This document shows, piece after piece, positions 22,722-24,240 of a stretch of 33,411 nt of DNA. The DNA is from Chloroflexota bacterium (GTDB taxonomy: Bacteria > Patescibacteriota > Saccharimonadia > Saccharimonadales > Saccharimonadaceae), in contig SEAL01000001.1 in assembly GCA_004145215.1 (NCBI GenBank), positions 1-33,411 on the forward strand, in the 5' to 3' direction. How positions within the stretch are numbered: position 1 is the first letter of the stretch; the number at the start of each line of letters is the position of its first letter. The notes beneath the pieces were generated by a model. That model saw nothing but the letters and a program-made list of their open reading frames with translations. It was not told where the DNA came from and did not search any database. Position numbers and translations under genes: made by a program.

Positions 22722-24062
22722 TTAGTCAAAAAATTCATCGAACTCATCACTTGAATTTTTACGGCGACGGTCTTTGACTTTACTGACGATTCGTTCAAAA
22801 CTGAGCGTCTCTTCACTGGTTGTTGCTGTGTCTTTGAATGAATATTGTTCACTCTCTAATTCTGATTCTCCAACGAACACAATAAACGGCACATTCTTTT
22901 TGATGACCGCTTTAATCTGTTTGTCGATTTTACGTCCGGTAATATCGACTTCGACATTTACACCTTCTGCACGTAGTCGCTTGGCTAACTGCTGGGCGCC
23001 CATGAATGTATTGTCGATCACCACAATACCAACCTCTGTCGTCGATGATAGCTCTGGTAGTAAATTGTGTGATTTCAAAAATAATTCGGTTGTTGTTAAT
23101 CCAGGCGCCATACCGACAGTTGCAATCGGTTCTGCGCCGAATAACCCGACCAAACCATCGTAACGTCCGCCACCGAATAGCGATCGATTGTTTTCTGGAT
23201 CGTTATCAAATACTTCAAACACCGTACCTGTGTAATAATCTAGTCCACGCATCAATGTGATATCAAATATCGCATTCTTTACGCCGGCTTGTTCTAATAG
23301 CGTAAATAGTGCCTGCACTTCGCGAACTGCCGTACTATCCAGTAACTGCTGCGGCAACTCTGCCATAGATTTTGCTGATATCAACTGAGCGATTCGCTTT
23401 AATCCTTCGGCCGCTGTTTCGTTGCCGAAAATTTCTATCGCTTGATCACGGAAGTCTTCGACAGGAATCTTTCCTTTTCGGTCAAACAATTTGACCATCA
23501 TCTGCGACTGAACCGCATCAAGCCCCAAGTAGTTCGTCATCATATAATTAATCAGGACACGATTATTAATGCGAATAACATACATGTCATCACGTGCGCC
23601 AAATGCTTTCATAACTTCGGACGCTAGGCTAATGATTTCGGCTTCTGCGCTAGCGCCTTCGACACCAAAGATGTCAGTGTTTAACTGCCAGAATTCTCTT
23701 TCACGGCCACGCTGTGGGCGCTCGTACCTCATAAAGTTAGCAATGCTATACAAACGCGCTGGGTAACCTAATTCTTGGCGGCGAGCGGCGACCATACGAC
23801 TAATCGATGGTGTCATTTCGGGACGGATCGCAACAGTACGGTCGCCTCGGTCCATGAACGTATATGTTTGTTCACCAGCTAGTTCCTGGCCGCTTTTTGC
23901 CGCGTATACTTCAAGTGGTTCGAGTATCGGGGCTCCGTACTCTTCATAGCCGTGCAGTTGGACGACTTTACGCCATGTGTTAAATATATAGTTTTGTATT
24001 CGTTTGTCAGCGGGATAATAATCTCGCGTGCCTTTATACGGTTGTGAGGAAAGTGTTGCCAT
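22722..24062 (-). CDS. hisS: Histidyl-tRNA synthetase
   Basis: A 446-aa class II synthetase. Motif 1 region GTRDYYPAD, motif 2 RYERPQRGREREFWQLNTD, the histidine-specific LMRGLDYYTGTVFEVF block and motif 3 GGGRYDGL are all present. The C-terminal anticodon-binding domain (VGIVVIDNTFMGAQQLAKRLR) ends in an unusual Lys/Arg plus Ser/Asp/Phe-rich tail (RRRKNSSDEFDEFFD). A weak TATGAT lies just upstream and AGGA may act as SD. About 75 nt further up are a terminator hairpin and a His-rich leader peptide with its own promoter, so expression is probably set by histidine-dependent attenuation. Confidence 0.96.
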   Translation of the reverse strand: MATLSSQPYKGTRDYYPADKRIQNYIFNTWRKVVQLHGYEEYGAPILEPLEVYAAKSGQELAGEQTYTFMDRGDRTVAIRPEMTPSISRMVAARRQELGYPARLYSIANFMRYERPQRGREREFWQLNTDIFGVEGASAEAEIISLASEVMKAFGARDDMYVIRINNRVLINYMMTNYLGLDAVQSQMMVKLFDRKGKIPVEDFRDQAIEIFGNETAAEGLKRIAQLISAKSMAELPQQLLDSTAVREVQALFTLLEQAGVKNAIFDITLMRGLDYYTGTVFEVFDNDPENNRSLFGGGRYDGLVGLFGAEPIATVGMAPGLTTTELFLKSHNLLPELSSTTEVGIVVIDNTFMGAQQLAKRLRAEGVNVEVDITGRKIDKQIKAVIKKNVPFIVFVGESELESEQYSFKDTATTSEETLSFERIVSKVKDRRRKNSSDEFDEFFD

Positions 24063-24134
24063 GCTGATGATATCCTATCATATTTTCGCTATATTTGCAA
24101 GCGTTATTGTAATGTGATGTAACTGGGAAATAAA

Positions 24135-24155
24135 TACGCCGAAGTGATCGGCGTA
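24135..24155 (-). terminator. Attenuator terminator in the hisS leader
   Basis: TACGCCGA and TCGGCGTA form an 8-bp stem with a 5-nt loop; the minus strand continues TTTATTT. It lies between the leader peptide stop codon (24181) and hisS (24062). GGAGTG (24174-24169) can pair with CACTTC (24146-24141), which overlaps the loop and 3' arm: a possible antiterminator. Confidence 0.7.
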
Positions 24156-24180
24156 GAAGCATAGTGCACACTCCCCCGAC

Positions 24181-24225
24181 CTACTCCGGCAATAGATGTC
24201 GATGGTGGCGAGCTGTGATGTTCAT
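24181..24225 (-). CDS. Histidine-rich leader peptide of hisS
   Basis: A 14-codon frame, MNITARHHRHLLPE, then TAG. Three His codons lie within four positions (CAC CAT CGA CAT). A TGG-extended TATAGT ends 6 nt before the ATG, so the first transcribed base should be the A of ATG. The stop codon is 26 nt ahead of an intrinsic terminator that precedes hisS. This is the arrangement of ribosome-mediated attenuation: with little charged tRNA-His the ribosome stalls at the His codons and the downstream hairpin choice changes. Two Arg codons are also present, so Arg sensing is a lesser alternative. Such a small frame could arise by chance; the context is what supports it. Confidence 0.6.
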   Translation of the reverse strand: MNITARHHRHLLPE

Positions 24226-24231
24226 GCTATT

Positions 24232-24240
24232 ACTATACCA
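24232..24240 (-). promoter_or_regulatory. Promoter of the hisS leader
   Basis: TGG plus TATAGT (24237-24232), 6 nt before the leader peptide ATG. It directly follows the terminator of the surface-protein gene. Confidence 0.6.

Follow-up and report, generated by a model that had tools for sequence, protein, structure and literature searches.

Ribosome-mediated attenuation through histidine codons is a classical mode of regulation in proteobacteria. In the enteric hisL element (RF00514) the leader peptide carries seven His in a row, and the antiterminator pairs chiefly with the 5' arm of the terminator. Translation can also act as it reaches the end of a complete gene, as in the rph-pyrE attenuator of E. 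coli, which senses UTP via coupling and has no amino-acid control codons. In bacilli, a His leader has been predicted for hisS* (a hisS paralogue) and for hisZ (PMC2965389), and three lineages of Firmicutes have predicted His leaders before their his genes; these attenuators contain runs of three to five His codons and occur only where HisR, the predicted histidine regulator of the YerC/TrpR family, is absent (PMC9413887). Mycobacteria attenuate through leaderless polycysteine short ORFs (Canestrari 2020, cited in PMC13236596). Our search of the open-licence literature found no paper on amino-acid attenuation in CPR bacteria, Saccharibacteria included.

The window analysed here is a stretch of 33,411 nucleotides of saccharibacterial DNA in which we delimited the following features:

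24232-24237, minus strand: -10 box TATAGT, extended by TGG (sequence)
24181-24225, minus strand: leader ORF MNITARHHRHLLPE*, candidate leaderless leader peptide (sequence, folding analysis)
24196-24207, minus strand: control codons CAC CAT CGA CAT, HHRH (HHxH kept in frame)
24183-24190, minus strand: antiterminator strand 1, GCCGGAGU, with its partner ACUUCGGC at 24145-24138 (partition function, duplex; covariation in relatives)
24176-24181, minus strand: antiterminator strand 2, GGUCGG, with its partner CCGAUC at 24151-24146 (folding; architecture shared by relatives)
24155-24175, minus strand: accessory hairpin GGGAGUGUG-cac-UAUGCUUCU (part of the minimum-energy fold when the ribosome occupies codons 6-9)
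24135-24155, minus strand: terminator hairpin UACGCCGA-UCACU-UCGGCGUA, in DNA letters TACGCCGA-TCACT-TCGGCGTA (sequence, folding; stem with compensatory changes)
24128-24134, minus strand: terminator U-tract UUUAUUU (DNA TTTATTT), imperfect (sequence)
24072-24100, minus strand: proximal hisS promoter TTGCAA-N17-TAGGAT, 9 nt 5' of the hisS ATG (layout common to near relatives)
22722-24062, minus strand: hisS, histidine--tRNA ligase, 446 aa, ATG at 24062 (TIGR00442)

We consider it highly probable (about 0.9) that this element is a ribosome-mediated transcription attenuator sensing charged tRNA-His, a reading for which we computed the parts, their conservation and covariation, the histidine gene context and a folding switch that follows the ribosome position. 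As we infer the start site, the leader translation and the stalling, transcription would begin at or beside the leader AUG and a ribosome would initiate at this 5' end without a Shine-Dalgarno site. With charged tRNA-His in ample supply the ribosome would reach the stop codon and cover 24190-24176, so that the terminator hairpin would form and transcription would end before hisS; left free upon stalling, 24190-24176 would instead bind the nascent terminator at its loop and arms (24151-24138), and the antiterminator thus formed would allow RNA polymerase to continue into hisS. The scheme shares with hisL the His-codon leader peptide, the intrinsic terminator, the exclusive antiterminator and the decisive role of ribosome position. 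It departs from it in the HHxH motif and the leader devoid of a Shine-Dalgarno site, in the absence of a match of the window element to the RF00514 covariance model, and in an antiterminator strand which lies both within and after the last codons and partners the terminator loop plus both arms.

The individual parts agree largely with a preliminary description of the locus. The minus-strand sequence contains the TGG-extended TATAGT and, 6 nt after it and where +1 is expected, the ATG at 24225; the proposed 14-codon HHRH frame, with three His, is closed by TAG (24183-24181), and the terminator hairpin with its UUUAUUU (24155-24128) lies between the leader and hisS. The downstream gene is hisS as claimed, its product scoring 341.8 bits against TIGR00442 (cutoff 286.75, E=5.4e-102).

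A DNA similarity search with the 201-nt leader retrieved a single relative, over 29 nt around the terminator, so pattern and covariance searches were needed to trace the element. Allowing no more than two mismatches, a DNA pattern that began at the last His codon and ended with the stop codon matched in 23 of 295 same-family genomes as compared to 4 for the reversed pattern, and the hisS upstream regions of same-family genomes presented the parts in the order seen in the window. In the GTDB collection, every pattern match with full anatomy belonged to a Saccharibacteria or Patescibacteria record, the others having no such anatomy, and the pattern found no element in viral contigs. Nine chance pattern matches with missing anatomy (L048, L057, L058, L061, L068, L069, L071, L074 and L075) and L172, which lies inside a coding region, were discarded. 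A first covariance model built from 22 elements detected 41 elements in 39 same-family genomes at E<=1e-3, and none at this threshold in the other 256 of the 295, several near relatives being without the element. A second model, built from both sequence classes, added 39 elements from many other families of the order. The sample of the phylum outside the order yielded no convincing match; the R2 matches found elsewhere in the phylum (E 0.004-0.01) were rejected as being at the chance level expected from 287 genomes. Altogether, about 80 homologous elements were found in the sampled genomes of the order of the window (Saccharibacteria), spread over many families. An HMM of the 22 relatives, with the window left out, matched 24238-24130 with E=4.9e-12, the next best place in the window reaching E=0.64; the window element is thus more than a chance resemblance.

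The leader is the most recognizable portion of the family. In all but about ten of the ~80 elements a TAnnnT box precedes the start codon of a short frame. The box is invariant or nearly so in relatives at the -10 position of the window, and the start codon (ATG, GTG or, once, ATA) follows it usually at 6-7 nt, a maintained spacing that fits leaderless initiation. These frames comprise 14-20 codons ending in HHxH[LMI][LS]P(E/S/A), with an intrinsic terminator behind them, and the stretch between start codon and homologous stop position, 51-66 nt, is a multiple of 3 in 23/23 elements of the first set. His accounts for 100 of 604 residues over 40 leaders. At codon -2 (the second-last His position) the model-found elements carry CAY in 36 of 43 cases and CAA in 3, both CAT and CAC occurring, and in every class the stop codon falls within or just past the antiterminator segment. 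The window leader ends 3 codons earlier than those of most class-1 relatives, as do class-2 leaders. The covariation of His codons, stop and terminator upstream of hisS in relatives had been proposed as a check in the preliminary description, and these features clearly co-occur and covary.

Downstream of the last His codon lies a stretch that is antisense to all of the terminator hairpin: its strand 1 (GCCGRA..) partners the terminator loop and 3' arm, and strand 2 (..YCGG, GACYGG) the 5' arm. The duplex energies of own leader:terminator pairs sum to -1049 kcal/mol, as compared to -800 +/- 23 for permuted pairs, with 0/50,000 permutations matching, although the permutation and shuffle controls do not fully remove shared ancestry from these statistics; the advantage of own pairs holds inside each class too. 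In a fixed alignment the strand-1 helix is paired in 91% of cells, which drops to 46% or less when the helix is slid, and loops and leaders co-vary in separate lineages (L037, L038, L039, L110, L124). The terminator stem is itself conserved with compensatory changes. The antiterminator had initially been placed in a helix of 24174-24169 with 24146-24141 (GGAGUG:CACUUC). This pairing can be drawn but is neither conserved nor energetically dominant, and it was rejected in favour of the much longer, conserved and dominant pairing of 24190-24183 with 24145-24138 plus 24181-24176 with 24151-24146. Another helix, between regions 1 and 2 (CUAUCC/GGAUAG), is real in many class-1 elements, where 67.5% of cells are paired, but it is missing from the window and from class 2 and is therefore not the core. 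The accessory hairpin, which spans both antiterminator sides, is in turn peculiar to the window.

These comparative data already contradict the notion that the hairpin simply terminates the upstream transcription unit and that the His-rich frame arose by chance. Intergenic terminators are common and hisS has its own proximal promoter, as this notion would have it; however, the gene upstream of the leader already ends with a terminator of its own at about 24275-24247, and the leader frame, the His codons and the antisense segment are conserved in ~80 elements beside his genes, with a covariation that no permutation matched. We regard it as hardly tenable.

Folding with the ribosome placed along the leader, computed at equilibrium and ignoring kinetics, gave a mean terminator probability in 39 relatives of 0.02 when the A-site sat on the first His codon and of 0.97 when it had reached the stop; the corresponding means in 40 elements mostly of other families were 0.11 (median 1e-5) and 0.97. 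In the window this probability stays at 0.000 while the A-site is on codons 6-8, reaches 0.03 on codon 9 and jumps to 0.97-0.99 between codon 10 and the stop, i.e. a sharp switch between codons 9 and 10, and its value of 0.96 without a ribosome makes off the default state here. Shuffling the spacer of the window gave a mean of 0.92, with values below 0.05 in 1.7% of cases, and the switch was stable for assumed footprints of 10 to 18 nt. In silico, a ribosome at the control codons thus frees the antiterminator and a ribosome at the stop masks it. Five distant elements (L144, L155, L165, L167, L170) showed a weak computed switch or none, three of them (L155, L165, L167) having one His codon only; together with L163, these weak elements may be decayed or sense something else.

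The two exclusive folds of the RNA would also suit an attenuator operating without a ribosome, in which a small molecule, HisRS or uncharged tRNA-His binds the RNA in the manner of a riboswitch, a T-box or an autogenous circuit, and autoregulation of hisS would be plausible. Nevertheless, the conserved core consists of in-frame codons with CAT/CAC variation, beyond which no conserved structured sensor domain is left besides the leader ORF; no Rfam family matches the element, and neither the T-box (RF00230) nor His_leader (RF00514) gave a match at E<=1 in the window region and 11 related loci. Such a ribosome-free device is very improbable, and sensing through the translated leader remains our preferred reading.

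As far as the MAG contigs from which gene context was read allow, a hisS on the same strand is found downstream of about 61 of the 80 elements, either immediately or after one to several intervening genes, among them HisG-like, LOG-like and S66 peptidase genes and an uncharacterised family (the first gene of L034) with its AstE-like neighbour. Elements without hisS in reach are often 5' of histidine genes: hisG and hisD follow those of L111, L140, L169 and L173, L166 adds a hisI-like gene, and histidine-racemase-like genes stand behind L126 and L146, the family match of L126 being below its cutoff. The presumed target genes (hisS, hisG, hisD, hisI-like and histidine-racemase-like) belong to histidine, the amino acid of the control codons.

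The near relatives (L006-L032) carry upstream of hisS, with or without the attenuator, the arrangement TTGCAA-N17-(TAGGAT/AACAAT)-N7-9-ATG, most of them sharing this proximal promoter layout with near-leaderless spacing to the hisS ATG. In the window this promoter (24100-24072) is 3' of the attenuator terminator, which limits the control of hisS by attenuation. Judging from this layout, hisS is probably served by two promoters, one basal and one attenuated, and attenuation, as we infer its effect, would probably bring an inducible increment to expression. The core of the initial proposal, a His-leader attenuator of hisS, is maintained, with the correction that the gene is not under its sole control. 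In L110, L042 and L114 the terminator is followed by a hisS that has a Shine-Dalgarno site, and in these lineages the attenuator looks like the main control of the gene.

The proximal promoter also favours the view that the family is functional with the window copy as a relic, hisS being carried by TTGCAA-N17-TAGGAT, as do the early stop codon of the window leader and the lack of the element in several close relatives. The computed switch of the window is nonetheless still sharp, its own antiterminator contains compensating pairing, and class-2 relatives are intact despite the same early stop. A relic is thus unlikely, if clearly less so than the two preceding alternatives, and we regard the window copy as probably a working attenuator.

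Some neighbouring genes deserve mention in their own right. The histidine-racemase-like protein of L126 (301-1617, plus strand) is fused to an M15 D-Ala-D-Ala dipeptidase-like domain, and genes downstream in L120, L123 and L146 are also histidine-racemase-like; all of these lie directly behind or near His attenuators and score well below cutoff against NF052224/NF033599. L116 and L122 share a gene pair for an uncharacterised protein of 260-280 aa and an S66 LD-carboxypeptidase (MccF-like), located between the attenuator and hisS (L116) or serS (L122); since S66 proteins are able to protect against aminoacyl-adenylate inhibitors, a link to synthetase protection is possible. Another recurrent pair (L034:1570-2975, L135, L151, L161, L165, L168) consists of an uncharacterised family without Pfam match and an AstE-like deacylase; it lies downstream of His attenuators from many families and may take part in the uptake and use of histidine or peptides. 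In genera g2 and g12, of the same family as the window, many genomes encode a very divergent HisS (~32% identity to that of the window), and no convincing attenuator was found in them, which suggests that hisS was replaced together with its control.

In ten loci (L125, L127, L160, L161, L162, L166, L168, L169, L171, L173) the element is formed by the 3' end of a YerC/TrpR-family gene, the product of L127 scoring above the TIGR02531 and PF01371 cutoffs and that of L125 above the Pfam cutoff and slightly under that of TIGR02531. In a separate search for HisR (L182-L196), 13 of 14 readable gene ends, the exception being L192, consisted of a His-rich tail (e.g. HHxHxxPARAD) with an antisense terminator behind it. 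At equilibrium, HisR tails switch as sharply as stand-alone leaders (0.0001 to 0.97). The HHxH[LI]xP motif stands in the same frame in both, which suggests, without proving it, that stand-alone leaders are remnants of hisR. To our knowledge, a sensor at the 3' end of a hisR gene is new. As in rph-pyrE, translation at the end of a full gene would control the terminator before the next one. The protein adjoins his genes like the HisR (YerC) matching TIGR02531/PF01371 described previously (PMC9413887), the difference being that the saccharibacterial C-terminal tail HHxHxxPARAD would serve as attenuator leader as well. We tentatively advance, at somewhat less than even odds, that Saccharibacteria possess one device in two forms, a HisR tail doubling as control peptide and stand-alone leaders descended from such tails after hisR loss, with an antiterminator that is antisense to the entire terminator hairpin and pairs first with its loop.

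Novelty had also been claimed for the locus, and this holds for the lineage, the RNA topology and the way the parts are combined, not for each part singly, as the Bacillus leader of a hisS paralogue and the mycobacterial leaderless ORFs precede it. The predicted leaders of bacilli and other Firmicutes similarly place His codons and a terminator before hisS-family or his genes, but in another phylum, and in Saccharibacteria the sensor can be a HisR tail. The mycobacterial ORFs are likewise leaderless and short, with control codons and a regulated operon; in what PMC13236596 states of them, however, they respond to cysteine and act by translation attenuation, not through an intrinsic-terminator switch. 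What is new is the lineage-wide family, the antisense-terminator topology, the union of these with probable leaderless starts, and the form carried by HisR tails.

Many Saccharibacteria depend on their host for amino acids. One order-wide family here would govern an aminoacyl-tRNA synthetase, and also histidine biosynthesis in genomes that have it, which would imply tight coupling of transcription and translation in very small cells. The element offers a ready reporter of the histidine state in these hard-to-culture bacteria and a clean way to ask if translation from a leaderless start can begin early enough for attenuation; in the HisR case, the last codons of the regulator gene would themselves be the sensor.
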